Assembly: GCA_001871015.1 (NCBI GenBank)
Contig: MNUO01000069.1
Coordinates: 1 to 15,591 of the forward strand
Source: Candidatus Desantisbacteria bacterium CG1_02_38_46
GTDB taxonomy: Bacteria; Desantisbacteria; UBA1551; UBA1559
DNA length: 15,591 bases
Direction of reading: 5' to 3'
How positions within the stretch are numbered: position 1 is the stretch's first letter; the number at the start of each line of letters is the position of its first letter. A program made the translations under genes and the position numbers. The notes under the pieces are model-generated. The model searched no databases and was not told the DNA's origin. It saw only the letters and a list, made by a program, of their open reading frames with translations. This document shows, piece by piece, positions 1 to 15,468 of this stretch.

Positions 1-269
1 CGCAGGCTGGGGGCATCCGCTTGTGTACTTTCTTTTGCTCTGTTTATTATCTTATCGTCTATATCTGTAAAATTCTGCACATAGTGAACTTTATATCCTT
101 TATATTCAAGGTATCGCCTTATCACATCAAATACAACATAGCACCTTGCATGCCCAATATGGCATTCATCATAAGGTGTAATTCCGCAGACATACATCTT
201 CACGTCTGGCGGATTCTGCGGAACAAATTCTTCTTTTTGCCTTGAAAGTGTATTATATATCTTTACCAT
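1..269 (-). CDS. cysS: Cysteinyl-tRNA synthetase, N-terminal part, cut by the window edge
   Basis: This is the first 89 residues of class I CysRS, which attaches cysteine to tRNA-Cys in the cytoplasm. Visible are the start [11 protein letters not shown], the zinc-ligand cysteine in [11 protein letters not shown] (C28), the class I signature HIGH at residues 37-40, and the conserved [13 protein letters not shown] at about 66-78. The start is ATG at 269, with a GAGGG ribosome binding site about 7 nt upstream. The frame is open to the window edge, so the gene continues to the left. It begins 12 nt after the stop of the small nuclease gene, and I see no promoter or terminator between them, so it is probably carried on the defence operon transcript or has a promoter inside it. 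Residues 80-89 ([10 protein letters not shown]) differ from the usual text after this motif, but the fragment is too short to judge. Confidence 0.93.
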
Positions 270-281
270 CTTAATCCCTCA

Positions 282-650
282 TCATATTCTTTTATAGAAA
301 GCTTCTCTCCCCTTAGTAATCAACTTATATTTCCAACCATTCCTGCAACAAAAATCTATTGCTGTCTCTCTTTTCAGTTTTGTCGATAACCATAAGAGTA
401 AGGGCAAACCTTTTGTTTCATGAATTTCTTTAGCACCATCTCGATATTCAACCAAAAAATCAGGAATGTAATATCTTGCAAATCCTAAAAATTTATAAGG
501 TATCCTAATGTTATGCTTTTTTGTCCATTTTGCCACAGCATGGTCACGCTCTAACTCAACCATATATTCTCGTTCAAGGGTAGAGTCATATTTCTCTTCG
601 CCATAAGGACTCTTTTTAAGATTTGTTAACTTCCCTCTTATGGTAATCAT
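282..650 (-). CDS. Small PD-(D/E)xK nuclease, stand-alone partner of the Res-like helicase
   Basis: A 122-residue protein that looks like a lone PD-(D/E)xK nuclease domain. An acidic helix STLEREYMVEL (23-33, candidate E25/E27) is followed by IPDF with D64 and then HETKG with E78 and K80, the order expected for an E...D...ExK active site. In classical type III enzymes a nuclease of this fold forms the C-terminus of Res. Here it is a separate gene whose ATG overlaps the helicase stop as ATGA, which predicts translational coupling and a near 1:1 ratio. The gene ends in two consecutive stops (TGATGA), directly before the cysS ribosome binding site. TnsA-like nucleases have a similar N-terminal helix and are an alternative family label. 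The fold call rests on motifs only and no cleavage specificity can be read. Confidence 0.72.
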   Translation of the reverse strand: MITIRGKLTNLKKSPYGEEKYDSTLEREYMVELERDHAVAKWTKKHNIRIPYKFLGFARYYIPDFLVEYRDGAKEIHETKGLPLLLWLSTKLKRETAIDFCCRNGWKYKLITKGREAFYKRI

Positions 651-2704
651 ATTTTACTTTTTGCAAAAATACCCTCTATCAACTCTGGTCTCAAAAACAC
701 ATCTCTAATCTGGTCAACTATTGCCCAAAGGATGCGTAATAATCGCTCATCATTTGATTCCTCAACATCGGTCCCTAATAGAAAACGTTTTCTAATATGC
801 TCACGAATAATTTTAACCAAAACAACCTGTCTCTCATCTGGATTTCTATCATATTCAAGAAATGCATCATGTGCTATTAAGTGAATCTGTCGAACTAATT
901 GTTTTTTCAATTCTTCTATACCCCAATTCTCAGTTTTCGTTATTCGGGCAATTTCCTCTATTTCTATTTTAGGAACATCTTTATCAATAATTGTAAGGTC
1001 CCCATCAAGATTCAGACTTTTAATCTGTTCAATTTCTTCAGTAATGTTCATTTTATGAAATTCATATTTATAATCATCAAGAAATCTCTGCCATTCATAA
1101 ATTGGTTCAACTATTTCTGGTGGTTCTGGAGTAGGTGGCAAGGAAGAAATATCCAGTCTTTCTTCTGCTTCTTCGATAGTAGTTTCGCCTTCATCTATTT
1201 TTTCCATCTCTTTATCTTCCGGAATTTTTTCAATATCAAAAATAATGCCTGCTGGGTCTAACGAATCTGGATATTGAGTCGCCCTTAAGTGCTCCCATAG
1301 CCAATCGTGCTTCAAAATTGGATGGTCAACCACAAATAAAGATTCCCATTCTTCAGGATTTTTACTCATTCTTCTTAAACCTCTTCCAATGACTTGTGGA
1401 CCATATACAGAAAATTTTTGTCCATCTGGCATCTGTTTAAAGCAAAATTTTCTAAAAAGTAAAATCACAGAGATATTACGAACATCCCATCCTTCACGAA
1501 GCATCAAAACTGAAACCACAGCGTCCCATTCCGTTAAGGGCTCTTTATTCAGGTTGCGAGCAGCCTCTTTTAACTCATCATCAGATTCATTAGTTACAAG
1601 TAATACTTTTTTTACTCCATAGGGTTCCCCGATTTTTAAAATTTCATCTTTTATACGTTCTGCATCTGCAATTGAAATTGCGACTACAAAAAGAAGTGGC
1701 TTAAACCGAGGACTTCCATCCTTATTCATTGGCATTCTCATATGTTGATTCTTCAGGAGTTCAAGAGCAATTGCAATTTGCTGACGCATAGGTTTTACAC
1801 TTGTTATGTAGCGCCTGGCAGGTATATTCCTTCTTTCAATTTCTTCCCAGGGCACATCTTCTGCAGAAATAGTTTTTCCTGTTTCCAAATCTTCATAGGT
1901 TAACTGAACCTTTCGAACATCAGGATGAAATACCACAATTCTCTTAATAATTTTATCCTGCATTCCCTGGGCAATGTCATATACAAAAATCATTTTGCTG
2001 TCTGGATGTAATCCATCAAGTCTATCAGGAGTAGCGGTTGTATCTAACCTGAAGAACCTCTTTGGTTTGAGTTTGTTTATCAGGTCATTATATTGTTCAG
2101 CTTTAGTATTATGTGCCTCATCATTAAATATACATAAAGATTCAACATTGTCGCGTAATACTTTCCAGTTATCTGTTCGTTCATAAATCTGGTGAATATT
2201 TCCTAAAATAATATTTCCGGATCTTATGCCTACAGCACTTACAAAAGGTTTCATTATATGAAGAGAAAACCTATTTTTTAGTGTTTCATAGGAATTTGAA
2301 AAGAAGGGAAAAACATCATACACATAGGAAGAAGAATTAATATCAAAGTCGTCTATCAATCTCTCACGCACAATTGTATTTGGTGTTAAGACAAGAAATT
2401 TCATCTGGTCGTGGACAATCATCATATATGCACTCATACCAGCAATAATAGTAGTTTTTCCTCCTCCAGTCACGATATTTGTTAGTATATCCTTTTCGCC
2501 AAGAATTTCAAAGGAATAAACACAGCGCTGAATTGCTTCTAACTGCATTTTCCATTGCTTTTCGCTAAAAAGTTCCATTTTGGGCTTGAATAGTGAAGAA
2601 GAAATGTGTCTCGAAAATGCAATTCCTTTTTCAGGAATTCCCTGAAATTCTGTCTTTACCCATTCCCTAAAATTTGCTTCGTGCGATTTAAAAAAGTAAT
2701 ACAT
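647..2704 (-). CDS. SF2 DEAH helicase/translocase, type III Res-like, without its own nuclease domain
   Basis: A 685-residue superfamily 2 ATPase. The motifs are in order: Walker A TGGGKTT (79-85), DEAH (195-198), motif III TAT in RLDTTATPDR (223-225), motif V in VLMLREGWDVRN (about 399-410) and motif VI QVIGRGLRR (437-445). The LREGWDVRN block is typical of type III restriction Res subunits. After about residue 480 there is a charged region (480-560) rich in E and P, then a helical tail, with no ExK-type nuclease motif; that domain is supplied by the overlapping downstream gene. Four nucleotides separate this gene from the HEPN gene upstream. The likely role is ATP-driven movement on DNA in restriction of unmodified DNA. 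Other DEAD/DEAH defence helicases cannot be excluded, but the neighbouring methyltransferase supports a Res role. Confidence 0.88.
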   Translation of the reverse strand: MYYFFKSHEANFREWVKTEFQGIPEKGIAFSRHISSSLFKPKMELFSEKQWKMQLEAIQRCVYSFEILGEKDILTNIVTGGGKTTIIAGMSAYMMIVHDQMKFLVLTPNTIVRERLIDDFDINSSSYVYDVFPFFSNSYETLKNRFSLHIMKPFVSAVGIRSGNIILGNIHQIYERTDNWKVLRDNVESLCIFNDEAHNTKAEQYNDLINKLKPKRFFRLDTTATPDRLDGLHPDSKMIFVYDIAQGMQDKIIKRIVVFHPDVRKVQLTYEDLETGKTISAEDVPWEEIERRNIPARRYITSVKPMRQQIAIALELLKNQHMRMPMNKDGSPRFKPLLFVVAISIADAERIKDEILKIGEPYGVKKVLLVTNESDDELKEAARNLNKEPLTEWDAVVSVLMLREGWDVRNISVILLFRKFCFKQMPDGQKFSVYGPQVIGRGLRRMSKNPEEWESLFVVDHPILKHDWLWEHLRATQYPDSLDPAGIIFDIEKIPEDKEMEKIDEGETTIEEAEERLDISSLPPTPEPPEIVEPIYEWQRFLDDYKYEFHKMNITEEIEQIKSLNLDGDLTIIDKDVPKIEIEEIARITKTENWGIEELKKQLVRQIHLIAHDAFLEYDRNPDERQVVLVKIIREHIRKRFLLGTDVEESNDERLLRILWAIVDQIRDVFLRPELIEGIFAKSKI

Positions 2705-2708
2705 AACT

Positions 2709-3473
2709 TTATCCTGGTTCTATCCTTTCATCTAAACGTTTCAAAAGTAAACTTGCTAATGATAAATATTCAAGTGTTTTATAAGGATCTTCCTGTTCTA
2801 TATTCTCATGGGCTTTTGGATTTCTAATACCCAATGTAACACCTTTGAAAATTTCCATAAAACCTAATTGTTCATCTTTTTCTGATTGTGCTTGTAGATT
2901 GTTCAACTTTATTTTTGGATTATTTAAAGAAAATGCTTGTTCCATAAGTGTCGCCCCATCTAATTCTCTTAAACCAGAGATTTCTCTCACATTTACAATA
3001 ACTTCTTTAAAGGCATTTAAAATTGCTTCTGCATACATTTTATTTTCAAATGCTTTTTTGCTGACTCTTACAATATTGGGATGAATTTTGAGCGAATCAA
3101 AAAGTATAATCAAATCTTCAAGAAGTACCTGCTCCTCTTCTGTGGTTTCTACTCTCCCAATAATTTTATTGAGTTCTTTTATAACTAAATCCAAAGCAGG
3201 CCCTTTTTGGGAAGGTTCAATTCCTCCTAAAAAATCAATCCAAGGATCTTGACTTATCCCGATAGAAGGCTGATAAATCATAAGACCACTGAATTTTCTT
3301 ATGTATGGTTCTATTGCTCCAAATTTTCTGCTTAAGATTTGTTCCTGTTTTCGTATCTCACCATGGTTCTTGATTACTTCGCCATCATCTACAGATTCAC
3401 AATAGTAATTTCTATGTTTTTTCAATAAGCTCAAAAAAGATTTTAATTTTTTTATCAAGTCCTTTGTCTTCAT
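2709..3473 (-). CDS. HEPN-superfamily Ymh/TIGR02391-like protein, putative ribonuclease
   Basis: A 254-residue, largely helical protein. Residues 1-140 are a coiled, charged N-terminal half I cannot assign. Residues about 142-250 match the pattern of the Hypoth_Ymh (TIGR02391) family: AILNAFKEVIVNVRE, SGLRELDGATLMEQAF, a glycine in LGFMEIFKGVTLGIRNPKAH, and LEYLSLASLLLKRLDE. RNPKAH at 217-222 is an R-x4-H motif, the catalytic signature of HEPN RNases (codons at 2808-2825). Family assignment is from memory of the pattern. RNase activity is inferred. Nine nucleotides separate it from the methyltransferase stop, and four separate its own stop from the helicase start, so it is an integral member of the operon. 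Possible roles are an abortive RNase effector, a regulator of restriction, or a purely structural subunit. Confidence 0.75.
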   Translation of the reverse strand: MKTKDLIKKLKSFLSLLKKHRNYYCESVDDGEVIKNHGEIRKQEQILSRKFGAIEPYIRKFSGLMIYQPSIGISQDPWIDFLGGIEPSQKGPALDLVIKELNKIIGRVETTEEEQVLLEDLIILFDSLKIHPNIVRVSKKAFENKMYAEAILNAFKEVIVNVREISGLRELDGATLMEQAFSLNNPKIKLNNLQAQSEKDEQLGFMEIFKGVTLGIRNPKAHENIEQEDPYKTLEYLSLASLLLKRLDERIEPG

Positions 3474-3482
3474 TGTATTCTT

Positions 3483-5417
3483 CTATTCTCCTATTTTAAT
3501 TTTCCTTGCTAATACAGTCTCGCCGGCAAGGTTGTCCTGAACTTTGCAGGCAATCGTATATTCTCCTGACTTCTCAAATTTGTGTTTAGCGGTCAAGATT
3601 GCTTCAAATCGCTCGCCAATTTTCTTATCTTTAACCTTTTCTCGCGATAAAATATATTCTTTGTCTGCAACAAAATGACCTTCCTGATAATCAAGGTCCC
3701 ACTGGCAATTGACTAAAAAACTATCTTCGTTGGTTGAAAGGGCATCAATTGCTTCAAATTCATATTCAAGTTCACTAATCTTTTTTGCCTTAATATCACC
3801 GATAACCGGTGGCTTGGAAAAACGCAAGAAAAATTCATTTTCTTCGGCATCTGGATAGCGCTGTAAAATACGAGCACGGAATTCTCTTGAATCAAGTGGA
3901 ATTAACTCTATTTCAACAGGCAAATTATTTTCCTCAGCATATTTTCTAAGTACTTTAATATATTCAATGCCCTGCCGACTGAACCTCCACCCAATAATTT
4001 TTGCACGCACAAGTTTATTTGGCTCAAGTCGGGATTTTATTTCATCAAAGAAGTCCTTAACAACTTTTGCATCAATAGAATCGTTTGGATTTGCAGGTCC
4101 CACCAAAATTGGTTCCTGCTGTCCGGGCGGACGAAAACCATTAGCAATGCCTTCCGCAGTATTAGCACTTGCACCATAGCAGGTTAAAACAAAATCTATA
4201 AAATCATCTTGGGAAAGATATGTAAATTTGTCAATTGGATAAACGCCAAGATAAGAAACTTCAATGTTAGGAATTTTTTCTGCTGTAATATCCAATTTTC
4301 CCTGAACCATTTCCGCTTTGGATATGTTACTTTTTACTCCACTCATTTCTTCACCAGTTTTAACAAGCCGGTCAAGAGTTACTGAAATTGCAACGCGCGA
4401 GGAATCGCAACCAATAAATCTGCGCTTTAGTTTCATTGCCACAGCTAAAGTAGTTCCTCCCCCACAGAAGAAATCAGCAACAATATCACCCTCATTAGAA
4501 GACGCTTTAATAATCCGCTCTAAAAGTGCTTCAGGTTTTTGGGTAGGATAACCGATCATCTCGCTTCTTACTCTATCCGTGGTATAAATATCACACCACC
4601 AATCTTCCATAGCTTTTCCTTTTTCCTCAAGTTTTTTAACATCTATTTCTTTACCCGTATAAGCAAGAGCCGTGCCACGGGTATCATGAACTCCTGATTT
4701 ATGAGGGCTACGAGGCTGATTAAAAGTAAACTGTTCTGTCTTAGAATATCTTAGAATAATATCATGCTTTTTTGGAAAGTGTTGGTGTGTTCCACTTGGT
4801 CCTGAATAACACCAAACTATCTCGTTCTGAAAATTCTCATATCCAAAAATTTTGTCCATCTCGCATTTGATATAATGACTTGCATGCCAGTCGCAGTGGA
4901 CATAAATTGAACCGGTATTTTTCAAAACACGTCTCATTTCCCATAGCCGGGCATTCAACCAGATAAGATATGTATCAATTCCTCCTTCCCATATATCATA
5001 GAAAGTGCGGACTTCATTTGTATCGCCCCAGATAACATTATAGGTTCTACCTGAGAAAAATGGTGGGTCAATATAAATAAGATCAACAAATTCTGATGGA
5101 ATTGTGCGAAGAACTTCAAGATTATCTCCCAGAATCAGTTGGTTTGCTGGTAATTCAGGAGCATTAAAAATTACAGTATCTCCGTGATTAGGTGGATGAA
5201 GTCTCGGGAGCCGGATATATGGAAAAACTCTGTCAAATGACTTGTGTTCATCATATCCCAAGGGTGGGCGAGTCGGGTCTGGTAAATTATGGACCCGCCT
5301 GCGCATTTTCTCAGAAACAGAAAATACCCTTTTCTGTTCCGGTAATGCCTGTTTTTGCGACTCTTCTTGAATTTTCTGTAAATCTTCCTGCGCCTGAACC
5401 TTCTTTTCTTTCTGCAT
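3483..5417 (-). CDS. Beta-class DNA methyltransferase (type III Mod-like) with a long C-terminal extension
   Basis: A 644-residue AdoMet-dependent DNA methyltransferase, probably N6-adenine. Catalytic motif IV DPPF lies at 117-120 within VDLIYIDPPFFSG. The AdoMet-binding motif I, DFFCGGGTT, follows at about 315-323, and GYPTQKPEALLERI (289-302) is the usual motif X region. The order IV, target region, I is that of beta-class enzymes such as type III Mod. The first 50 residues are a charged QKE-rich coil. From about 360 to 644 there is a long extension. Its end (about 555-640) alternates short strands and contains CQWDLDY and KFEKSGEYTIACKVQDN, resembling a PKD/Ig-like beta sandwich. The start ATG has an AAGGGA site 5 nt upstream. 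It is the first gene of the operon, as expected for the protecting activity of a restriction system. Confidence 0.9.
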   Translation of the reverse strand: MQKEKKVQAQEDLQKIQEESQKQALPEQKRVFSVSEKMRRRVHNLPDPTRPPLGYDEHKSFDRVFPYIRLPRLHPPNHGDTVIFNAPELPANQLILGDNLEVLRTIPSEFVDLIYIDPPFFSGRTYNVIWGDTNEVRTFYDIWEGGIDTYLIWLNARLWEMRRVLKNTGSIYVHCDWHASHYIKCEMDKIFGYENFQNEIVWCYSGPSGTHQHFPKKHDIILRYSKTEQFTFNQPRSPHKSGVHDTRGTALAYTGKEIDVKKLEEKGKAMEDWWCDIYTTDRVRSEMIGYPTQKPEALLERIIKASSNEGDIVADFFCGGGTTLAVAMKLKRRFIGCDSSRVAISVTLDRLVKTGEEMSGVKSNISKAEMVQGKLDITAEKIPNIEVSYLGVYPIDKFTYLSQDDFIDFVLTCYGASANTAEGIANGFRPPGQQEPILVGPANPNDSIDAKVVKDFFDEIKSRLEPNKLVRAKIIGWRFSRQGIEYIKVLRKYAEENNLPVEIELIPLDSREFRARILQRYPDAEENEFFLRFSKPPVIGDIKAKKISELEYEFEAIDALSTNEDSFLVNCQWDLDYQEGHFVADKEYILSREKVKDKKIGERFEAILTAKHKFEKSGEYTIACKVQDNLAGETVLARKIKIGE

Positions 5418-5454
5418 AATTATCCCTTTATATGAGAGTAGAACTAAAAGTCTA

Positions 5455-5471
5455 TTCTACAATTTGTAGAA
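5455..5471. promoter_or_regulatory. Perfect 17-bp dyad, candidate operator of the methyltransferase operon
   Basis: TTCTACAA-T-TTGTAGAA is a perfect inverted repeat with a one-base centre. It lies 38 bp upstream of the methyltransferase start and covers the proposed -10 box. A further half-site, GTAGAA, occurs at 5438-5443. Repressor or C-protein control of restriction operons through such dyads is established in other systems; no regulator gene is visible here, so the binding protein is unknown. Confidence 0.55.
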
Positions 5472-5490
5472 CCCCAATAAAAATTTTCAA
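5463..5490 (-). promoter_or_regulatory. Probable sigma70 promoter of the defence operon
   Basis: On the minus strand, TTGAAA (5490-5485) is followed after 16 bp by TACAAA (5468-5463), giving a transcript that starts near 5456 and a leader of about 40 nt to the methyltransferase ATG. The -10 match is weak, and the dyad overlaps it. Confidence 0.4.
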
Positions 5491-5546
5491 GCCGTCAGAG
5501 CAAGTTCTTCCTAAGATTGCAGAAATTTTTAAAATTGCGATTTTAC

Positions 5547-5575
5547 TTGACAAAAATAAAAAAATATGATATAAT
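5547..5575 (+). promoter_or_regulatory. Near-perfect extended -10 sigma70 promoter on the + strand
   Basis: TTGACA (5547-5552), a 17-bp spacer, then TATAAT (5570-5575) with TG at 5567-5568 forming an extended -10. This is the consensus in every key position. It points away from the methyltransferase operon and has no protein-coding gene downstream before a terminator, so it most likely drives the small RNA that follows. Confidence 0.85.
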
Positions 5576-5581
5576 CTTTAC

Positions 5582-5676
5582 AGAAGTTGAAAGTTAATTT
5601 TCAAAAGGTTCCTCCTCAGTGATAAAAACCCGGGATAGGGTTTTTCCGAAAGGATAGCTGGGGAGGTCGTTTTTTT
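5582..5676 (+). ncRNA. Unrecognised small RNA of about 95 nt with a branched fold
   Basis: Transcription is predicted to start near A5582. The RNA begins with a small hairpin (UUGAAA 5587-5592 with UUUCAA 5599-5604). A three-way junction follows. The closing stem CCUCCUCAG (5611-5619) pairs fully with CUGGGGAGG (5658-5666). One arm is AAAAACCC (5624-5631) with GGGUUUUU (5638-5645). A second short arm is CC-GAAA-GG (5646-5653). Seven U residues follow (5670-5676). There is no start codon with an open frame and I do not recognise a known family: SRP RNA, 6S, hammerhead and the common riboswitch cores do not fit. It lies between the methyltransferase operon and the DUF3800 gene and is divergent from the former, so a role in the island is possible but unproven. 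Confidence 0.68.
5611..5676 (+). terminator. Intrinsic terminator formed by the closing stem of the small RNA
   Basis: The 9-bp stem 5611-5619/5658-5666 is followed by UCG and seven U residues. The U run overlaps the DUF3800 stop codon, which is read from the other strand, so the two transcription units meet tail to tail. Confidence 0.7.
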
Positions 5677-6397
5677 AGTGGATTTTATATTTATTGTCAT
5701 CGTTTCTTTTGCTATAATAAGAGTTTCGTTCATAGAAGATATCTCTTCCTGGTTTGTAATAATTAAACTCGCTTTTTATTCTTTGTTCTATCGCTTTATA
5801 TGGCCTCACTTCAATATCACCCCAGTCACCATATTTTCTATAAATTGCCCATCCACAATAATCAGCTGCTTGAAGACAATAATTAGACTCTGATGGATGG
5901 TGAAAAATGTAAAACCTTTTATTTTCATTCCCGCCTAACAACCTCCTCAATGCTACCTTAATACCCTTCTCAACAAAATCCCTCTTTTTTGTAAAAGGAA
6001 TTGAATCTGTAAAAATGAAAACTTTGTTAAAGGAATATCTTTTGAATATATACTGAAGAAGGCATTTGTATATTTCAAGATAAATTACAAAATAATTTCT
6101 TGTGGGATGATTTTTTGGTTTTTCTATAATTATTGAATCTATTTCATATGAATCATCGCTCTTTAAAATGTCAAAAACTTTATTTCTTATAATCTGGCTA
6201 TCTTCGCTTGCGTGAAAGAGTTTTATATTTTGACCTTCTTTTAGCAGTTTATTATCAAGTTCATTCAGCTTTTCCATTAAGCCAAAAGGGGTTGTGCTTA
6301 ATAATGAAGTAAAAACCAGGTGCTGGCTACCCTGTGAGGAAAAATCAAAATTTCCTGATTCGTCAAAAAATAAATAAAGCTTTTCTACATTTTTCAT
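5675..6397 (-). CDS. DUF3800 family protein, RNase H-like fold expected
   Basis: A 240-residue soluble protein. It has the family hallmarks: an N-terminal strand ending in DESGNF (12-17), FHASED (61-66), an aspartate after a hydrophobic strand in VFIFTDS (D131), and the C-terminal CLQAADYCGWAIYRK (174-188). Aspartates spread in this way suggest a metal-dependent RNase H-type nuclease site, but the biochemical role of the family is not established. DUF3800 genes are often seen near defence and mobile genes. Its start has no clear ribosome binding site. It follows the HDAC gene by 65 nt and precedes the small RNA and methyltransferase operon, so it may be part of the island or an independent passenger. 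The C-terminal tail is rich in K, R, Y and N. Confidence 0.82.
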   Translation of the reverse strand: MKNVEKLYLFFDESGNFDFSSQGSQHLVFTSLLSTTPFGLMEKLNELDNKLLKEGQNIKLFHASEDSQIIRNKVFDILKSDDSYEIDSIIIEKPKNHPTRNYFVIYLEIYKCLLQYIFKRYSFNKVFIFTDSIPFTKKRDFVEKGIKVALRRLLGGNENKRFYIFHHPSESNYCLQAADYCGWAIYRKYGDWGDIEVRPYKAIEQRIKSEFNYYKPGRDIFYERNSYYSKRNDDNKYKIH

Positions 6398-6444
6398 CTG
6401 TGCAATTTTCCAACTGTGTCAGAAAGTATAGTATCTTGAAAAGA

Positions 6445-6455
6445 GGGACAGTCCC
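6445..6455. repeat. Short palindrome GGGACaGTCCC between HDAC and DUF3800 genes
   Basis: An 11-bp palindrome in the short gap at the border between the core genes and the island. Its GGGAC/GTCCC form recalls REP-type palindromes, but only one copy is seen here, so membership of a repeat family is a guess. It could also be a regulatory dyad for the DUF3800 gene. Confidence 0.35.
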
Positions 6456-6462
6456 ATATTCC

Positions 6463-7293
6463 TCAGTCCATAGCCCCCTGCAGGTATTCGTAGATGCATT
6501 CTGGTAAATCTTCGCTGTATCCGCCTTCAAGAACGCTGAAGACTGGTTTCCCGAGATTTTTTATTCTTTCTCCAATCTTTTTATAACTTTCTTTTTCCAA
6601 TTCCATATTTGTAATAGGGTCAAGTTTATAAGTATCAAAACCTGCAGAAACTGTAATCAAAGATGGATTGAATTTTTTCACTTCAACCAAAGCATTGTCC
6701 AGTACTTCCAGATACCTTTTTTCACTTGTTCCGGCAGGAAGTGGAAAATTCAGACAATTCTTATAAGATTTCAGACCTGTTCCAGGATAGAGTGGATTCT
6801 GGTGAAGAGAAACATAGAGCACTTTTTCCTCTCCCAGTAAAATATCTTCTGTTCCATTTCCATGGTGGCAATCTATGTCAATGATGGCAATTTTTCGACT
6901 ACGCTCAGGACTTTCTCCTAAAGCTTTCTTAACTGCTATAGCAATATTATTAAAGTAACAGAATCCACCAACATTATTTTTTGTAGCATGATGGCCGGGT
7001 GGTCTTAAAAGTGAAAATGAAATTTTATTTTTTAACGCCAATTCACAAGCCTTAATTGCACCGCCTGCTGACAATTTAGCAATCTCAAATAACCCAGGCA
7101 AATTCTTTACACTTTCTACCATCTGCTGTGAATGAACTAAAAGCAAGTCTTCCTTAGAACAGGGCTCTGGCTCAACAAGCTCAAACCCTTTTTGTTTTAA
7201 AAAAAGATATGAATTCTGCACCCTTTCCGGCGATTCTGGATGTCCTGGTTCTCTGTAATTCAAACACTTTTCAGAAAAAACTATTGTAATCAT
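6463..7293 (-). CDS. Histone deacetylase family (AcuC/acetylpolyamine hydrolase-like) zinc amidohydrolase
   Basis: A 276-residue arginase/deacetylase-fold enzyme expected to remove acetyl groups from lysines or polyamines. Motifs are complete: HPESPER (18-24), RPPGHHA (97-103) with the tandem catalytic histidines, GGFCYFNN (109-116), DIDCHHGNG (139-147) with zinc ligands D141 and H143, [10 protein letters not shown] (217-226) with the third ligand D220, and LEGGY near 257-261 with the transition-state tyrosine. It is shorter than typical 300-370 residue members. Its ATG overlaps the aspS stop as ATGA and lacks its own ribosome binding site, so it is translated by coupling. The substrate cannot be read from sequence; speD and speE lie about 3 kb upstream on the same strand, which makes an acetylated polyamine worth considering. 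Confidence 0.9.
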
Positions 7294-9113
7294 ACTGTCT
7301 TTATGTGTAGTTCTTTTAATTGTTTTTCTTCTACTTTTGAAGGCGCTCCGGTCATCGGGCAGGTGCCAGTTGCGGTTTTGGGGAAGGCAATTACATCCCG
7401 GATTGATTCCTCTCCAGCCATCAGCATCACCAGACGGTCAAGTCCAGGAGCAATTCCACCGTGAGGAGGAGCACCATATTCAAGCGCTTCGAGAAAAAAT
7501 CCAAATCTCTCTATGGCATTTTCCTCTGTAATCCCCAATATTCTGAATATCGCCCGCTGCACATCTAAGCGATGATTTCTGATGTTGCCGCTTCCAATTT
7601 CCACCCCATTCAAAACCAAGTCATAAGTTCTCCCTTTTAATCGCAACAATTGTTGAATAAATTCGGGATGGTTGAGCAGTCTGGGTAATTCCTGATTATT
7701 AAGTTCAATAATCTTTTCTATGTCTTCCTCAACAGCAGAGGCAAACGGATGGTGGGTTGGCTGAATTCTTTTTTCCTCCTCGTTCCATTCAAAAAGGGGA
7801 AAGTCCATAACCCAGACAAACTTGAACCCGGATTCAATTAAATTCATTTTCTTTGCCATTTCAATCCTGAGATTGCCTAACACTTTATTTGCAACTTCTC
7901 TTTTATCAGCAACAAAAAGCAATAGGTCTCCTGTTTTAGCTGACATTGCTTTCTGTATTCCCTCGAGCTCTTTACTAGTGAAAAACTTCACAATAGAAGA
8001 AGCTGGACCTCCTTCCTCAACTTTTATCCATGCCAGACCCTTTGCACCAGAACTTGTTGCAAGAGTGATAATTTCATTTATTTCTTTCAGACTGAACTTT
8101 GCTCCACCCTGCACATTTATACCCTTTACTACTCCTTTGTTTTCCAGAATTTCCCTGAACACTTTAAAGCCAGTGCCTGTAAGCATCAAACTCAGCTCAA
8201 CCAACTCCATACCAAACCTTAAGTCAGGTTTATCAGTTCCATATTTCTTTAGAGATTCGGCGTATGGAGTACGCGGGAATGGAATCTTGATTTCCATATC
8301 AAGCGTTTCTTTGAATACCCTGTATATCATCTGCTCAGTAAGTGCATAAATGTCTTCTTCAGTTACAAACGACATCTCAATATCAACCTGGGTGAATTCC
8401 GGCTGCCTGTCTGCGCGCAAATCCTCGTCCCTGAAACAACGAGCAATCTGAAAATATTTCTCATAACCGGCAATCATCAGAATCTGTTTGAACAATTGTG
8501 GTGATTGCGGCAGGGCATAGAATTCGCCTGGAAGCAAACGGCTTGGAACAAGAAAATCCCTGGCACCTTCAGGAGTACTCTTTGCAAGAGCTGGCGTTTC
8601 AATTTCTAAAAATCCATTTTCTATAAGGAATTTGCGGATAGCGATACAAATTTTTGAACGCAATGTCAGGTTCTTGACCATTGGGCGGCGGCGCAAATCA
8701 AGATAGCGATATTTGAGTCTGACCTCTTCGCTTGCGTCAACCTCGTCCTGAATGACAAAAGGTGGAGTTTTTGACTCATTCAATATTCTCAACTCGTTTA
8801 CTTTTACTTCAATCTCGCCGGTAGGCAATTTTGGATTTTCTGTGCCAGCAGGTCTGGGAACAACCTCTCCCTTTACCGCAATTACATATTCAGGTTTAAG
8901 TGTGTGTGCTTTCTTGTGTAGTTTTGGATCATGTTGTGGATTGAAAACTATCTGTGTCACGCCCTCCCTGTCGCGCAGGTCAATAAAAATAACGCCACCG
9001 TGGTCACGGCGGGTATCCACCCATCCCATCAGTATCACTGTCTTACCCAGGTCTGACTTTTGCAAAGCGGAACAGTGATGACTCCTTTTCCAGTCTCCCA
9101 TTAATTCAGTCAT
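7290..9113 (-). CDS. aspS: Aspartyl-tRNA synthetase, predicted non-discriminating (Asp/Asn)
   Basis: A 607-residue bacterial-type class II AspRS. An N-terminal OB-fold anticodon domain (about 1-115) precedes motif 2 [20 protein letters not shown], a GAD insertion domain (about 290-420) and motif 3 [17 protein letters not shown] near the end. The anticodon domain carries His38 in RRDHGG and Gly90 in PAGTEN. In the Pseudomonas-type enzymes a His and a Gly at these places mark AspRS that also charges tRNA-Asn, whereas E. coli has Leu and Lys. This predicts that Asn-tRNA is made with the GatCAB amidotransferase, whose genes are not in this window. The start at 9113 has AGGAG 5 nt upstream. An intrinsic terminator lies just upstream, so a nearby promoter or readthrough is needed. 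Confidence 0.97.
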
Positions 9114-9149
9114 TTTGGCTCCTGTTATTAAACTTTACTAAATATATCT

Positions 9150-9186
9150 AAAAAAAGCCCCTTCACTAGAAGAGGCTTTTTAAAAA
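9150..9186 (-). terminator. Intrinsic terminator after rpsI, nearly symmetric
   Basis: Read on the minus strand, AAAAAGCC-CUUC pairs with GAAG-GGCUUUUU around a UAGU loop (one mismatch), with seven U residues at 9156-9150. The complementary strand also ends in U5, so it can work in both directions. It ends the speD-speE-rplM-rpsI unit 37 nt before aspS. Confidence 0.85.
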
Positions 9187-9206
9187 ATTCTGTGGTTAAT
9201 ACATTA

Positions 9207-9596
9207 TTACCGTTTTGACCACTGGAACTTACCACGAGCTCCCTTTTGCCCGTATTTCTTCCTCTCTTTCTCCCTGGGGTCACGGGTGAGGAGTGAGGCC
9301 TTTTTGAGCGTAGGAATTGTATCTGGATTAGCATGGGTTAATGCCCTCGCTATTCCCAATTTTATAGCATCCGCCTGCCCATGAATTCCTCCGCCTTCAA
9401 CATTTGCCAGGACATCAAACTTATCAAGAGTTGATGTTGCCTCTAATGGCTGACGCACTACATTCTGCAAAATTTGCCTGCCGAAGTAGGCAGCTATCTC
9501 TTTTTCGTTCACTATTATCTTGCCTGTCCCTGGTACCAGTCTTACCCTTGCTATTGAAGTCTTTCGCCTGCCCGTACCATAAAAAAACTCAGCCAT
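9207..9596 (-). CDS. rpsI: 30S ribosomal protein S9
   Basis: 129 residues from the ATG at 9596. It shows the S9 core [14 protein letters not shown] near the start, [19 protein letters not shown] in the middle, and the basic tail ending in KFQWSKR that reaches the decoding centre. I prefer the ATG at 9596 to an in-frame TTG at 9602, because AGGAG (9607-9603) sits 6 nt before it. The gene starts 13 nt after rplM, the common bacterial L13-S9 pair, and is followed by an intrinsic terminator. Confidence 0.97.
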
Positions 9597-9609
9597 CTTC
9601 AACTCCTTT

Positions 9610-10011
9610 TTATACTGGAAAGGGCTCTAATTTCTGAGCCTTGTGCGGATGCGAAGACGTAGGATAAACCTTCAAGCGGGATATAATCTTGTCCTCCAGG
9701 TGATTGTGCGGCAACATTCCTCTCACTGCATGCCTGATAATTTCCTCTGGATGGTCTTCAAGCATTTTAAGATATGGGACATTCTTTGCTCCACCTGGAT
9801 AGCCGCTGTGGCGGAAATAAAATTTTTGCTGTGCTTTCTTACCGGTTACCCGAACATCTTCTGCATTTATAACGATTACATAGTCACCAGTATCCTTATC
9901 ATGCGAAAAGGAGGATTTATGTTTTCCCATTAAAATTCGGGCAATTTGCGTTGCAAGTCTGCCTAATATTTTTCCATTCGCATCCACTAAAAAAAATTTT
10001 CTTTCAGGCAT
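9610..10011 (-). CDS. rplM: 50S ribosomal protein L13
   Basis: 133 residues from the ATG at 10011 ([19 protein letters not shown]). Family marks are [41 protein letters not shown] and [15 protein letters not shown]. An in-frame TTG at 10020 would add three residues but is less likely. The ATG lies inside the last codons of speE (ATGCCTGA, 8-nt overlap), so the two genes are translationally linked. There is only a weak AAGG site upstream. L13 binds 23S rRNA early in large-subunit assembly. Confidence 0.97.
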
Positions 10012-10876
10012 TGTAAACAACCTTGCCTTTCCTCAAATTCTTCTTTAAGTAATCTGGCAATACGAAAAGACTATTATGCACTTCTTGACTGTAAAACTTT
10101 AATTTTCCCTTCAATCGCTTTTTCCTGATACAATTTTGATTTAATGAACCTGGAAGAGCAGACATACTTGCTAAATTAAAACCCCATGGACCAACAAATG
10201 AAGGAACATATACCTGATATGGAAGCACGAATGGGAAAACTGCTTTCAGGGTTTGAAAGACATTTGAAAAATACTTAAGCATATTGAGATTTGTACTCCC
10301 TGATTGCACGGCAACAATACCATTTTCGGACAGCCTTTTCTTTATAAGGGTGTAAAACTCCTTTGTAAATAAAAGCTCTGACGGACCCTCGTTTTCTCCC
10401 GGGTCACAGAGGTCCAGAAAAATACAATCAAAAGTCTCTTTCTCTTTCCTTAAAAATTTTCTTGCATCCTGATAATATACCTTTACCCTCGGGTCTTCAA
10501 ATCTTCCTCTGTGCCACGATAAGAGATATTTCCTGGCAAGCTCCACCACTTCTTTATCAATATCAACCATTACAACTTTCTCAATGGTTGGATGTTTTAA
10601 TATCTCTCTTAAAATTGCACCTTCACCTCCGCCACCTACAAAAATTCTCTCAGGTTTTGGATGAAGAAAAAGTGCGGGATGGATTAGTGCTTCATGATAA
10701 ATAAATTCATCAAGCCGGGCAGATTGAATTTTCCCATTCAGAAAAAGGCATCGGCCATATTCAAGTGTATCAATGATCTTTACATCCTGATATTTTGTCT
10801 GAATACTTTTTACAATCCTGCCCAACCCATACATATGAGCTTCATAAGGAGTTAAAAATTCAACATACCAGGACAA
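10004..10876 (-). CDS. speE: Spermidine synthase-type aminopropyltransferase
   Basis: A 290-residue enzyme that transfers the aminopropyl group of decarboxylated AdoMet to a diamine. Visible are the N-terminal strand domain (YQDVKIIDTLEYGRCLFLNG), DEFIYHEALIHPAL, the nucleotide-binding GGGGEGAILREI, the acidic VVMVDIDKEVVEL, and the catalytic-loop region DCIFLDLCDPGENEGPSE. The last differs from the DSTDP form of classical spermidine synthase and resembles broader aminopropyltransferases, so the acceptor could be putrescine, agmatine or longer amines. The start is a TTG at 10876, preceded by AAAGGGGGTG, a strong ribosome binding site. It follows speD after a 145-nt gap holding tandem repeats, and its end overlaps rplM. 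Confidence 0.92.
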   Translation of the reverse strand: MSWYVEFLTPYEAHMYGLGRIVKSIQTKYQDVKIIDTLEYGRCLFLNGKIQSARLDEFIYHEALIHPALFLHPKPERIFVGGGGEGAILREILKHPTIEKVVMVDIDKEVVELARKYLLSWHRGRFEDPRVKVYYQDARKFLRKEKETFDCIFLDLCDPGENEGPSELLFTKEFYTLIKKRLSENGIVAVQSGSTNLNMLKYFSNVFQTLKAVFPFVLPYQVYVPSFVGPWGFNLASMSALPGSLNQNCIRKKRLKGKLKFYSQEVHNSLFVLPDYLKKNLRKGKVVYNA

Positions 10877-10916
10877 AAAACACCACCCCCTTTATGCTGC
10901 GCCCTGAAAATTTTAT

Positions 10917-10984
10917 GTCGCAAGACCTACTTGGTCGCAAGACCTACTTGGTCGCAAGACCTACTTGGTCGCAAGACCTACTTG
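10917..10984. repeat. Four perfect tandem copies of a 17-bp unit between speD and speE
   Basis: The unit, CAAGTAGGTCTTGCGAC on the transcribed sense, is repeated exactly four times, followed on the speD side by a partial fifth that diverges after one base. Each unit can form CAAG/CUUG or GGUC/GACC mini-hairpins. It lies in the leader of speE. Seventeen is not a multiple of three and no frame uses it. Copy number is likely to vary between strains by slippage. Confidence 0.95.
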
Positions 10985-11021
10985 GATGCCTCTGCCGATT
11001 CGTCTGAAGCAGTCCTCTTCC

Positions 11022-11459
11022 TTATCTTCCTTTTCTACAGACAACGGCTTCTCTTGACTTTTCAATCAATCCCTGCGTCGTCAAGAACTGCTCGGCCGTA
11101 AGAACTGGAAGAGGAATTACTCCTCTTTTCATCTCTACTATTACAGAACTCTTGGCCTTAAAATGGTTAATCATATAGTTGTAAGCAAGATCAGGCCTCA
11201 AGTCATCCCCGCAGGTAAAGATATCTACTGCCGCATACCCATGCTCTGGCCATGTATGAATGGAAAAATGGGATTCGGCAATAATCACCACTCCGCTGAT
11301 TCCATGGGGATTGAATTGATGAAAAGCACTCTCCAGAATATGTGCATTCGCCAAAAGAGCGGCGGCGTTCATTACCTTCTCGATCCTCTCGCAGTCGTTC
11401 AAGATTTCAGCATCACAACCATAAAGTTCTATCAGCAAATGATGCCCTAAAGCGTCCAA
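11022..11459 (-). CDS. speD: S-adenosylmethionine decarboxylase proenzyme (pyruvoyl, short bacterial class)
   Basis: A 145-residue proenzyme that cleaves itself to form the pyruvoyl cofactor and makes decarboxylated AdoMet for the adjacent speE product. Cleavage is expected between E62 and S63 in VVIIAESHFSIHTWPEHGY. The catalytic His68 and Cys83 (DIFTCG) are at the same numbers as in the Thermotoga enzyme. The length is a little above the usual 120-135 residues because of a C-terminal tail. The start is a TTG at 11459, with GGGGG (11472-11468) about 8 nt upstream; no ATG is available in frame nearby. A strong promoter and a 135-nt leader precede it. Confidence 0.95.
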   Translation of the reverse strand: MDALGHHLLIELYGCDAEILNDCERIEKVMNAAALLANAHILESAFHQFNPHGISGVVIIAESHFSIHTWPEHGYAAVDIFTCGDDLRPDLAYNYMINHFKAKSSVIVEMKRGVIPLPVLTAEQFLTTQGLIEKSREAVVCRKGR

Positions 11460-11479
11460 TTATCTACCCCCTTTCTTTC

Positions 11480-11525
11480 AGCCTCAGATGAAGCCTCCAG
11501 CCCCCCGATATAACATCGAGGAGGT
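11480..11525 (-). promoter_or_regulatory. Structured speD leader, unassigned
   Basis: The leader contains CUCCUCGAU-GUUAU-AUCGGGGGG (9 pairs including G-U) and GCUUC-AUCU-GAGGC. CCUCC at the left end can alternatively pair with GGAGG at 11498-11494 or with the GGGGG ribosome binding site. Control by AdoMet or polyamines is conceivable, but the cores of the known SAM riboswitches are not present. Confidence 0.35.
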
Positions 11526-11600
11526 TTGTGAAAACTATCAACTGATAAACTTTTTTTGATACTGACACTTTAGTTACTTTTAATTTATTCTTTTGATAAT

Positions 11601-11628
11601 ATTATACATTATTTTTTTCAATTGTCAA
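11601..11628 (-). promoter_or_regulatory. Consensus sigma70 promoter for speD-speE-rplM-rpsI
   Basis: TTGACA (11628-11623), a 16-bp spacer, then TATAAT (11606-11601) on the minus strand. Start of transcription near 11594 gives a leader of about 135 nt before the speD TTG. A/T runs upstream could act as an UP element. Confidence 0.82.
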
Positions 11629-11670
11629 GAAAAAAATGCAAAAAAATCCAAAAAAAATTCATTTTTTTCT

Positions 11671-11710
11671 AAAAAATTTTTTAAATTTCCGTCGGGAAAT
11701 GAAAAAAATT
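11671..11710 (-). terminator. Probable intrinsic terminator directly after glyS
   Basis: The hairpin AUUUCC-CGAC-GGAAAU (11700-11685) is extended by an A/U outer stem and followed by UUUUUU (11676-11671). It overlaps the glyS stop region. The stem is short in G-C pairs, so efficiency is uncertain. The surrounding 90 bp is almost pure A/T. Confidence 0.5.
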
Positions 11711-13898
11711 ATTTTTTTTCAACCAAAGATTCACTTAGAACAATTTTAGAAAAATCTGCAATTAAAAAGAATAAATTTGCAATTAAACAAAGTAATGAGA
11801 GACGATTTTCTTTCAAATTCTCGTCGTCAGTCATCACCATAACATGGTCAAAAAAATCATCAATCGGCTTGCCAAAATTTGTTAAAAGGATTTCCATCGC
11901 CTCTTTGAAATTATTATTCTTTACTTTATCCTCCACTTCATCTTTTACTTGCAAATAAATATCATATAATTTCTTTTCTTCTTTTTCCTGCAGTAGTTCA
12001 CTTTCAACTTGCAACTTGTCGTGCCCAAGCCAGATCCGCTGTGGCGGACAACTTGCAACTGTGATTTTCGCCTGCTCCAGTATATTCACGACCCGCTTGA
12101 ATGCAATGATGAACTTTTCAAAATCCGGACGTTTTCTGAATTCCTGTATAATTTTTGCTCTGTCCACTGCAGTACGCAAGTTTTTATTAAGTGCAATTTC
12201 CATTACTGCGTCCGCCTCATCATATTCTATACTGCGAGTTTTAAAAAAGGTTCGTATACGCTGCTTAAGAAAAATTATTATTTCATCTTTTGCATTTTTG
12301 TTTGTTACCTTGTCAGTGATTAATGATAACTCCTTGTCCACCAAATCCATAATTGGAACGCTGCTGACATCATTAACCTTCATCAGTACTTCAATCAAAC
12401 CCTGTGCATCCCGCCTTGCTCCAAATGGGTCCTCTGAACCGGTTGCTACATAGCCCTGGGCAAAAAATGAACAGATATTATCAATCTTATCTGCAATTCC
12501 TATAATCGCACCAATAGTCCCGGGCATATCCAATTCAAATCTTGGTAAATATTGCTCTTCTATGGCTCTTGCAACTTCACCATTTTCTCCAAACTCCAGA
12601 GCATAAATTTTTCCCATTGTTCCCTGCAAAGACGGAAATTCATTTATAACCTGATTTCCTGTGTCAATCCTGGAAAGAATTGCTGCTCTCTGAATTTTTT
12701 TCTTCATTTCTTCGTCCAATCTTAATACCTCTGCAATGAACAAAGAAAGTTTTTCTATTCTCTGAATTTTATCATACAGCGAGCCCATTCCGCCCTGGAA
12801 TATTACATCATTCAGCCGCTCTAATTTCGTATTAAGCCCTTCTTTTTTATCCTGCTCATAAAAAAACTTTGCATCTGCAAGCCGAGCGCTTAAAACATTT
12901 TCATTGCCCTGCCTTATTGTATCCTCAACAGATTTTGATAAACAGGGATTATTGACTATAGAAATAAAATTTGGACGAAGTTTTCCATCCTGCCCAACTA
13001 CCGGGAAGAACCTCTCATGCCCCATCATGCAGGTCATTACTAATTCCGAAGGCAGATGGAGATATTCAGGCGAAAATTCGCCTTTTATTGCATGTGGATA
13101 TTCTACAAGGTCGGCAACTTCATCAATAAGTACCCTCTCGAATTCTTGCCCGGCAATAGAGCCTCTACCTGCACCCTCGCACGGATATTTGCAAAGTTTT
13201 ATTAATGCTTTTTGTATCATTTTCTTTCTTTCTTCATGTTCGACAATTACATATGCTTTTTTCAATGCTTCTTTATATTTTTCAATATCCGCTTCTTCAA
13301 TTTCTATTTTCCTGGTAGAAACCAATCGGTTACCGTATGTAAATTTATTGGATTGCAAATCAGAGGTATTAAACTTTACAACTTTATCTCCATATAATGC
13401 AAGGACCCAGCGAATGGGCCTGGAGAATTTCATTCCACTCTGGTTCCATCGCATGGACTTTGGAAAAGTGAGCTGTGTTATAAAATATTTAAGATAACCA
13501 CACAGGTAAGAATACGTATCTTTGCCCTTTTCAATTACCCTGGCGCACGCATAATCACCATTTCCCCTTTTTTCAATCTTCAAGTTTTTGGCATCTATGC
13601 CAAGGGACCTGGCAAATCCGATTGCAGCTTTAGTGGGATTGCCACCGGCATCAAAAGCCACATTCTTCGCAGGACCAAAAATCTGCCTTTCAACATCATC
13701 CTGCTTATTATCTAAATTTTCTATGAAGAAAATTATTCGTCTGGGCGTTGTAAAAACTTTTACATCTCCATGAGCAATATTTTTAAGAGTTGGTCCACTT
13801 TTATAAACTTCTCTTATGCATCTCTGGTGAGATACAGGCAGCTCCTCGCACCCGATTTCCAGAAGCAAATTTTTCTTTTGACTCGCTGACACTTTCAT
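11709..13898 (-). CDS. glyS: Glycyl-tRNA synthetase beta subunit, with a repeat-encoded insertion
   Basis: The 729-residue tRNA-binding beta subunit of the alpha2/beta2 bacterial GlyRS. It shows LLLEIGCEELP (11-21), KSMRWNQSGMKFSRPIRWVLAL, DEVADLVEYPHAIKGEF, MMGHERFFPV, GMGSLYDKIQRIEKLS, DPFGARRDAQGL and the C-terminal DALR-like PIDDFFDHVMVMTDD. It is longer than the usual roughly 690 residues. Residues 613-631 (around SCPPQRIWLGHDKLQ) fall where relatives run straight from the VNIL helix to an EKEL-type helix, and are coded by a palindrome flanked by 12-bp direct repeats. The start ATG uses GGGGGTAGG as its ribosome binding site, contributed by the repeat element in the glyQ-glyS gap. It forms an operon with glyQ. 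Confidence 0.96.
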   Translation of the reverse strand: MKVSASQKKNLLLEIGCEELPVSHQRCIREVYKSGPTLKNIAHGDVKVFTTPRRIIFFIENLDNKQDDVERQIFGPAKNVAFDAGGNPTKAAIGFARSLGIDAKNLKIEKRGNGDYACARVIEKGKDTYSYLCGYLKYFITQLTFPKSMRWNQSGMKFSRPIRWVLALYGDKVVKFNTSDLQSNKFTYGNRLVSTRKIEIEEADIEKYKEALKKAYVIVEHEERKKMIQKALIKLCKYPCEGAGRGSIAGQEFERVLIDEVADLVEYPHAIKGEFSPEYLHLPSELVMTCMMGHERFFPVVGQDGKLRPNFISIVNNPCLSKSVEDTIRQGNENVLSARLADAKFFYEQDKKEGLNTKLERLNDVIFQGGMGSLYDKIQRIEKLSLFIAEVLRLDEEMKKKIQRAAILSRIDTGNQVINEFPSLQGTMGKIYALEFGENGEVARAIEEQYLPRFELDMPGTIGAIIGIADKIDNICSFFAQGYVATGSEDPFGARRDAQGLIEVLMKVNDVSSVPIMDLVDKELSLITDKVTNKNAKDEIIIFLKQRIRTFFKTRSIEYDEADAVMEIALNKNLRTAVDRAKIIQEFRKRPDFEKFIIAFKRVVNILEQAKITVASCPPQRIWLGHDKLQVESELLQEKEEKKLYDIYLQVKDEVEDKVKNNNFKEAMEILLTNFGKPIDDFFDHVMVMTDDENLKENRLSLLCLIANLFFLIADFSKIVLSESLVEKK
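12005..12060. repeat. Palindromic direct-repeat element inside glyS
   Basis: CAACTTGCAACT occurs at 12005-12016 and exactly again at 12049-12060. Between them is the hairpin TCCGC-TGTG-GCGGA (12035-12048). The two repeat copies are read in different frames (offset 44), yet the reading frame stays open through the element and back into normal GlyS sequence. Confidence 0.8.
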
Positions 13899-13905
13899 TG
13901 TGACC

Positions 13906-13970
13906 TACCCCCGACGTTTCTTTTCGAGCAACAAGGTTCCCCGCCAATTAGTAGTGGCGGGGGTTCTTAT
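13906..13970. repeat. Hairpin repeat element, copy B, in the glyQ-glyS gap
   Basis: On the + strand it runs TACCCCCGAC, a T-rich linker of 14 nt, AACAAGGTTC, the stem CCCGCCA (13940-13946), the loop ATTAGTAG, TGGCGGG (13955-13961), then GGTTCTTAT. It begins at the glyQ stop codon and its other end supplies the ribosome binding site of glyS. Copy A lies about 1 kb to the right. Confidence 0.8.
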
Positions 13971-14815
13971 TTTTCTTCACTCTTCTTAAGGTATCCCAGT
14001 GCACACTTGCGTGCAATCGCCCTTACCCTTGAAATGTAATTTGTCCGCTCTGTAATGCTGATTGCTCCCCTTGCATCAAGAATGTTAAAAATGTGGGAAC
14101 ATTTCAGAGTGTATTCATAAGCAGGTAAAACAAGCTCTTTTTTTAATAGGTCCTTTGCCTCATCTTCATATATATCGAATAACTTGAGCATCCTTTCCAG
14201 GTTTGCCTCTTTGAAATTATATTTTGAAAATTCTTTTTCTATCTGGAGTTGCATATCCCTGTATTTAAAATCTTCATTCCAGTCTATTTCAAACACACTT
14301 TTCTTATTCTGAATATACATTGCAATTCTTTCAAGACCATATGTGAGTTCAGCAGAAATCGGGTCCAGGTCGATTCCGCCAGATTGCTGGAAATAAGTGA
14401 ATTGCGTAATTTCCAGCCCGTCCAGCCATACTTCCCAGCCAAGCCCCCAGGCACCCAGTGTAGGCGATTCCCAGTCGTCTTCAACAAAACGGATATCGTG
14501 CTCCTTTTGATTAATTCCGAGTTCTTCTAAACTTTTAAGATAAATATACTGGATATTTTCCGGAACAGGTTTTAAAATCACCTGGAATTGATAATGCTTC
14601 TGGAGACGATTTGGATTTTCCCCATACCGACCATCGGTTGGGCGCCGGGATGGTTGCACATAAGCAGTTTTCCATGGCTCTTTCCCTAACACACGTAAAA
14701 AAGTAGCAGTATGAAAAGTACCTGCTCCAACTTCCATATCATATGGCTGAAGGATAATACAACCCTTCTTTGCCCAGTAGTCCTCAAGTTTTCGAATAAT
14801 TTCCTGAAATGTCAT
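13967..14815 (-). CDS. glyQ: Glycyl-tRNA synthetase alpha subunit
   Basis: The 282-residue catalytic class II subunit of alpha2/beta2 GlyRS. Marks are [90 protein letters not shown] and [13 protein letters not shown], followed by the C-terminal helical region ending in [15 protein letters not shown]. The ATG has AGGAG 5 nt upstream. Its own promoter lies 20-47 nt upstream, which gives a leader of only about 13 nt. glyS follows after 68 nt, all of it taken up by the hairpin repeat element. Confidence 0.97.
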
Positions 14816-14834
14816 TGCTACTCCTATTGGAAAT

Positions 14835-14862
14835 ATTATATCATAAAATTCTAAAAATGCAA
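14835..14862 (-). promoter_or_regulatory. Extended -10 sigma70 promoter for glyQ-glyS
   Basis: TTGCAT (14862-14857), a 16-bp spacer, then TATAAT (14840-14835) preceded by TGA, an extended -10 of the same TATGATATAAT form as the small RNA promoter at 5565-5575. Confidence 0.7.
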
Positions 14863-14892
14863 CAATAAATTGAGTTATTTTTTATTACGCCA

Positions 14893-15382: not shown

Positions 15383-15468
15383 TGTGTCTCCTGATATAAT
15401 ATTCACATGGGTTCTAACAGTGGGTTTTTGTAAAGTTAAACAAGAATGAACCTCAGAGGCGAATATTA

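Follow-up and report, generated by a model that had tools for sequence, protein, structure and literature searches.

The stretch of DNA analysed here (hereafter the window) comprises positions 1–15,591 of the forward strand (15,591 nt) of contig MNUO01000069.1 from Candidatus Desantisbacteria bacterium CG1_02_38_46 (assembly GCA_001871015.1; GTDB lineage Bacteria; Desantisbacteria; UBA1551; UBA1559). It carries four adjacent minus-strand genes, i.e., a DNA methyltransferase gene (mod, 5417→3483), a HEPN gene (3473→2709), a helicase gene (2704→647), and a nuclease gene (650→282), with gaps of 9 nt between mod and HEPN and 4 nt between HEPN and helicase, and a spacing of –4 nt (ATGA overlap) between helicase and nuclease. 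The coordinates, strand, gene order, and spacing given in a first-pass annotation of the window were all borne out by these gene positions, and the families it had named (Mod, HEPN, SF2 helicase, and PD-(D/E)xK nuclease) agree with the profile matches; judged by their sequences, the four genes are real and not chance readings of open frames. The features of the locus and its surroundings are as follows:

282–650, minus strand: NUC, TnsA-like PD-(D/E)xK nuclease, 122 aa, core gene 3 (PF08722, E 1.7e-8)
647–2704, minus strand: HEL, Res-like SF2 helicase without a nuclease domain of its own, 685 aa, core gene 2 (PF04851, E 2.4e-19)
2705–3482, no strand: variable accessory slot from the MOD stop to the HEL start, 778 nt (unrelated genes in other operons; sharp homology breaks between operons L008 and L034)
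2709–3473, minus strand: HEPN protein of the TIGR02391/Hypoth_Ymh family, 254 aa, slot occupant here (PF09509, E 1.6e-34; TIGR02391, E 3.5e-27)
2808–2825, minus strand: R-x4-H motif of the HEPN protein (RNPKAH, residues 217–222; R217 and H222 invariant)
3483–5417, minus strand: MOD, beta-class DNA methyltransferase, type III-like, 644 aa, core gene 1 (PF01555, E 5e-48)
4553–4796, minus strand: hypervariable region of MOD, residues ~207–288, presumed target recognition domain (nucleotide homology to homologues breaks)
5547–5575, plus strand: promoter-like site TTGACA-17-TATAAT with extended –10 TG, sigma-70-like, reading towards the RNA (12/12 match to the consensus, a consensus match only)
5610–5671, plus strand: structured RNA resembling DUF3800-IX, facing the DUF3800 gene (RF02968, 26.5 bits, full length)
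5675–6397, minus strand: DUF3800 gene upstream of MOD, 240 aa (PF12686, E 6.8e-12)

The Mod protein was recognised by the PADLOC MTase_II/III models and matched CcrM, RsrI, and the Mod subunit of EcoP15I (4zcf) in the PDB. Its motif IV (DPPF) precedes its motif I (DFFCGGG), and both appear intact in the sequence, while the anatomy of type III Mod proteins suggests that the hypervariable region presumably serves as the target recognition domain. The helicase motifs (GGGKT, DEAH, TATP, and QVIGRGLRR) and the catalytic residues of the nuclease (P63-D64...E78-T-K80) were each invariant among six homologues, and the nuclease additionally matched PF19778 below threshold. The helicase had no match in the phage and viral collections or among PDB sequences, and the nuclease reached an E-value of 0.7–0.8 at best among the latter.

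Relatives of the operon were gathered from ca. 1,600 genomes by means of the helicase and of the nuclease profile, and the content of the interval between mod and the helicase gene was not a selection criterion. Some 12 operons were examined, the majority in metagenome-assembled genomes, where binning errors may occur; the set with a complete Mod–helicase interval consists of the window and 11 others (12 in total). Identity to the window amounted to 63–75% for Mod in seven nearer homologous operons and to 67–81% for the helicase in the nearer homologues, and dropped to 34–42% for the core proteins of remote homologues. As read from these sequences, Mod, helicase, and nuclease are a conserved core across the homologues. 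Among the aligned Mod proteins, only that of L010 (3037–5307) carries an extra C-terminal stretch with two CxxC pairs, which looks zinc-ribbon-like by eye.

This core shares with classical type III restriction-modification (R-M) systems (e.g., EcoP15I and EcoP1I) a beta-class Mod with a variable centre, encoded upstream of a Res helicase of superfamily SF2 and of a PD-(D/E)xK nuclease. Cleavage by type III systems requires ATP and a pair of unmethylated sites in inverse orientation. In contrast to the classical systems, the nuclease of the window has a gene of its own (122 aa), and an accessory gene is situated between mod and the helicase gene. Single-chain mod-res junctions on five plasmids (i.e., Aminobacter SS-2016, Sphingopyxis, Dietzia, Rhodococcus, and Arthrobacter) ranged from –11 to +6 nt and held no insert. 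The nuclease profile nevertheless matched the C-terminal part of single-chain Res proteins, namely residues 762–838 of 895 on the Aminobacter plasmid and 722–789 of 849 on the Dietzia plasmid (among 19 proteins searched, with E ~1e-4 for this stretch). Moreover, on the 970-position NCBIfam model NF046055 (BPTD_3080 family restriction endonuclease), which likewise has a helicase part followed by a C-terminal nuclease part but describes a single chain rather than two genes, the helicase matched positions 532–628 and the nuclease positions 858–923, in order. Since these matches scored only 41 and 32 bits, respectively, against a cut-off of 800, the window proteins are not members of NF046055. Because both proteins match single-chain Res in order, with the nuclease at its C-terminal end, the data support the reading, at the level of sequence, that helicase and nuclease correspond to one Res chain divided into two genes. 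The nuclease profile and the order on NF046055 also uphold the first-pass description of a type III-like Mod/Res system with the nuclease as its own gene. The window and the homologues read thus far all encode the nuclease as a separate gene, and none has it inside the Res chain; since a beta-class Mod with a variable region and an adjoining SF2 Res helicase are present while the nuclease lies outside that helicase, the operon was filed as a split type III-like variant and not as a classical type III member. A type III subgroup with an extra helicase-like gene 5′ of mod-res has been described (PMC8259958).

Plasmid loci of Leptospira, Lysinibacillus, and Priestia, in which a helicase is followed by a 109–110 aa protein, were considered as further examples of the slot and rejected, as the nuclease profile does not match the small protein and the annotation shows no adjacent Mod. 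On two of the Leptospira plasmids (L039 and L047, ~6074–9148), a caspase gene precedes the genes for a remote SF2 helicase and for a protein of 110 aa, with no annotated Mod, and this is a different, possibly defence-related set. At two other loci (L025, 400–1326, and L026, 965–1930), a gene for a ClpP-like SDH-type serine protease lies directly upstream of a remote helicase-nuclease pair, and no Mod was visible before the start of either contig.

The gene situated between mod and the helicase gene in the window encodes a clear member of the Ymh/TIGR02391 family (PF09509, 118.8 bits vs. a cut-off of 25; TIGR02391, 95 bits vs. a cut-off of 39.45), and was assigned by PADLOC to PD-Lambda-3_B and Aga_HEPN. 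The R217 and H222 residues of its R-x4-H motif were invariant among 15 aligned proteins, and likewise in an alignment of the window protein with four plasmid relatives (n=5). In an AF2 model, the Ymh domain core (residues 129–250) was mostly predicted with a pLDDT of ~90 or more, with a dip at ~211–230, and the N-terminal 128 residues form low-confidence helices. The top four rows of a VIA-align comparison were all HEPN-type (sacsin 3o10, TT1696 1ufb, 1wwp, and AbiA 8oz7; Z 6.7–7.3), which is suggestive, albeit in a range that helical folds also reach by chance; 1ufb and 1wwp are HEPN proteins. Foldseek returned nothing at E ≤ 0.001 for the model against the PDB, and the protein matched no PDB sequence. 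The HEPN protein is probably a ribonuclease.

Family members also occur apart from this core, i.e., on plasmids of Leptospira, Hymenobacter, and Paenibacillus and on a Ti plasmid. In a Peduoviridae phage (L044, 2983–4134), a Hypoth_Ymh (HEPN) gene lies between a replication gene and a portal gene. A 2013 survey linked at least 16 HEPN clades to R-M systems, placed Ymh among the HEPN families ‘in operon with R-M’, and proposed a PrrC-like backup action for R-M-linked HEPN proteins (PMC3710099). The EcoprrI-PrrC system likewise carries a HEPN ribonuclease gene inside an R-M operon (the RNase activity of the window protein being a prediction). EcoprrI, however, has a type IC core and its PrrC is fused to an ABC ATPase, whereas the window combines a type III-like core with a Ymh HEPN protein in an unstable association; no ATPase family was matched within the 254 aa of the latter, setting it apart from PrrC/RloC. 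An RNA-degrading backup role is plausible for this one occupant.

The content of the Mod–helicase interval differed greatly among the other operons:

L008: UvrD-like helicase (GajB-like) + DUF3800
L034: TIR (PF10137, PADLOC PDC-S35) + DUF3800
L009: DUF5677
L010: 108-aa predicted membrane protein
L011: 120-aa predicted membrane protein + 288-aa protein with no family named
L029: trypsin-like protease
L030: 251-aa protein with one predicted membrane segment
L028: AAA + Schlafen/AlbA_2
L035: TrlF + AlbA_2
L031 and L021: empty

HEPN was found in the interval of the window only and in none of the 11 others (0/11, with the DUF5677 occupant of L009 scored as non-HEPN by its family name), and was missing even from operons whose helicases are 78–81% identical to that of the window. 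The only other genome of the window’s phylum among those searched (L021, 8235–12790) also had no slot gene; its operon is decayed, with mod interrupted by ~130 nt of unrelated sequence and a frameshifted helicase gene. An all-against-all blastp comparison of the slot proteins yielded good matches only among the DUF3800 proteins of L034, L012, and the gene upstream of mod in the window, and between the two AlbA_2 proteins; the match between the DUF3800 proteins of L008 and L012 was weak. Several of the occupants are members of defence families, i.e., TIR PDC-S35, GajB-like UvrD, RT-linked proteases, TrlF/Ppl, and DUF3800_VII.

These observations bear directly on the central claim of the first-pass annotation, according to which the four genes form one dedicated system with HEPN as its integral, built-in RNase. 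The tight spacing and single direction of transcription fit such a system. That annotation had, however, itself pointed to the adjacency of the four genes as the check to make, and to a HEPN gene missing from most intact homologous operons as the outcome that would tell against it, and precisely this pattern was found: all 11 other complete intervals hold unrelated genes or nothing instead. An integral four-gene system is rejected on the synteny of the operons read and retains virtually no credence. Because related operons hold wholly different genes at the same position, the RNase looks like swappable cargo rather than a fixed part of the machine.

How the slot changes was most apparent from L008 and L034, the helicases of which are 97% identical while their slots are unrelated (UvrD+DUF3800 vs. 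TIR+DUF3800). Their DNA homology stops 2 nt past the mod stop codon and restarts exactly at the helicase ATG, and the sole other break within the core coincides with the presumed target-recognition region of Mod. Moreover, L008 retains a 56-nt relic of a helicase 5′ end (MYYSFKSHEANFKKWLKSG) at 8001–8056, 3 nt after the UvrD stop codon and before DUF3800, with a best local score of 40.6 vs. a maximum of 14.6 in 100 shuffles. The simplest reading of this relic is that it is the scar of a cassette insertion, in which a second cassette would have arrived together with a new helicase start via recombination in the helicase 5′ end. Candidate scars in the other slots scored at or near the shuffled background. 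In the helicase tree, neighbouring tips carry different slots. The Mod–helicase junction was occupied in 10 of 12 operons vs. none of at least 17 for the helicase–nuclease junction (Fisher p 3e-6, a value that is descriptive only since the operons share kinship and are not independent). Taken together, the best explanation of these sequence patterns would be that genes enter and leave the slot at gene boundaries and leave the core undisturbed.

The slot might alternatively be a merely tolerated insertion point, with the HEPN gene as a passenger that has no role in defence. Slot genes tend to have a higher A+T content than the core, as is often the case for recent acquisitions: in 9 of 10 operons, G+C was lower in the slot genes than in their own core (with the DUF3800 gene of L008, whose G+C content falls between those of its mod and helicase genes, averaged with its slot neighbour), L028 being the exception. 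The scar in L008 also marks an imprecise insertion. Such passive accumulation nevertheless seems very improbable: the occupants are intact, oriented with the operon, and in many cases from defence families, the HEPN motif is retained, and the helicase–nuclease junction, in principle equally tolerant, is never occupied.

The DUF3800 protein encoded upstream of mod in the window is 38% identical to the slot DUF3800 protein of L034 (which matches the PADLOC DUF3800_VII model) and 36% to the DUF3800 protein of L012 (blastp). The RNA element on the opposite strand ends 3 nt from the DUF3800 stop codon and faces the gene, a location that is also that of DUF3800-IX RNAs. It shares the architecture of this 67-position family (RF02968), which is named for its DUF3800 neighbours, and matched it over the full length (E 8e-4 in 191 nt), albeit below the gathering score of 36.8; at gathering level, Rfam yielded no match in the entire window. 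A search of the whole genome with RF02968 returned the window site as its single match (E 0.0017). The element is rich in hairpins, with a fold z-score of –3.0 and a T-rich end, and is by these sequence features a probable DUF3800-IX-type RNA.

A second copy lies in L008 (8701–8765, minus strand; 55.3 bits, above the cut-off), within the slot between the DUF3800 gene and the helicase gene and facing the DUF3800 stop codon. Unlike typical DUF3800-IX RNAs, the window copy thus scores under the gathering level, while in L008 both gene and RNA lie inside the slot of an R-M operon. Among 14 genomes that carry such an operon or what remains of one, RF02968 matched only the window and the L008 slot; L034 and L012 had no match. 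Folding of the equivalent place in these two nonetheless gave a similar stem with two inner hairpins, with modest pair support and a poor automatic alignment, so that, counting L008, three DUF3800 genes besides that of the window have a look-alike of the RNA. DUF3800 proteins are described as having an RNase H fold and as accompanying putative ncRNAs and CRISPR systems of rare types (PMC10910872, PMC12669027). The presence of a DUF3800 gene and its RNA inside a restriction operon (L008) would point to a defence role for this RNA-protein pair.

On the basis of these comparisons, we consider it likely that the operon is a three-gene split type III-like R-M core in which an accessory slot with exchangeable content separates mod from the helicase gene; the occupant of this slot would be co-transcribed as a second line of defence. 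Mod would methylate host sites, with the specificity set by its variable central domain, and helicase and nuclease, directed by Mod, would cut unmethylated invader DNA. The gene spacing suggests a single transcript for the slot gene and the core; upstream of mod, the minus strand showed no conspicuous promoter-like site. The occupant would add an independent second line, and HEPN may stop growth or translation once infection has been sensed or restriction has been overcome.

A different relation between core and occupant would be that of EcoprrI and PrrC, in which the restriction complex keeps the slot protein inactive and releases it upon inhibition or overload. The HEPN gene lies a mere 9 and 4 nt from the core genes, the survey that placed Ymh in R-M operons proposed a PrrC-like model (PMC3710099), and several occupants (TIR, HEPN, and protease) resemble growth-arrest enzymes. 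The occupants, however, have no common domain by which one core could hold them, and some are multi-gene, with the DUF3800 module of L008 bringing its own RNA. Relatives of the HEPN protein also occur alone elsewhere, and at least one slot-free operon (L031) retains an open core. We regard control by the core, which might involve a PrrC-like physical link to HEPN, as unlikely, albeit worth weighing. Given the lack of a common domain and the parts of their own that some occupants bring, independent cargo is favoured over a PrrC-like latch. HEPN is more probably cargo that works by itself than a restriction-complex subunit, and most likely acts as a co-transcribed backup RNase. A broader conjecture, quite unlikely, is that the split core serves as a common sensor or chassis and that the slot supplies it with exchangeable effectors to trigger (RNase, TIR, protease, membrane proteins, or DUF3800 + RNA); if true, restriction would here be coupled to a plug-in suicide arm, the cassette swaps of which parallel the swaps of target-recognition domains.

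Independent cargo in the slot, as preferred here, resembles the defence genes known to be nested in the operons of other systems, such as darTG2 embedded between hsdS and hsdR (PMC12255303), under what has been termed ‘guilt by embedding’ (Payne et al. 2024, as cited in PMC12988326 and PMC12255303). Like these, HEPN is nested between conserved core genes and absent from homologous operons, and the TIR protein of L034 is a PADLOC PDC-S35 match. The papers searched, mostly from the open literature, contained no account of a split type III-like operon whose slot recurs, with replacement at exact gene boundaries and a scar. Embedded defence genes as such are already known; as far as the open literature shows, the split type III-like operon with its recurrent slot is what is new.

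If this reading is right, a single operon junction would act as a capture site for defence genes, and the slots of more genomes would yield candidate anti-phage genes, several of which are without known families here. Such operons would also provide a natural experiment on the control of embedded effectors by restriction cores. Elsewhere in the window, an intergenic 17-bp tandem repeat (GTCGCAAGACCTACTTG) is present in four perfect copies at 10917–10985.
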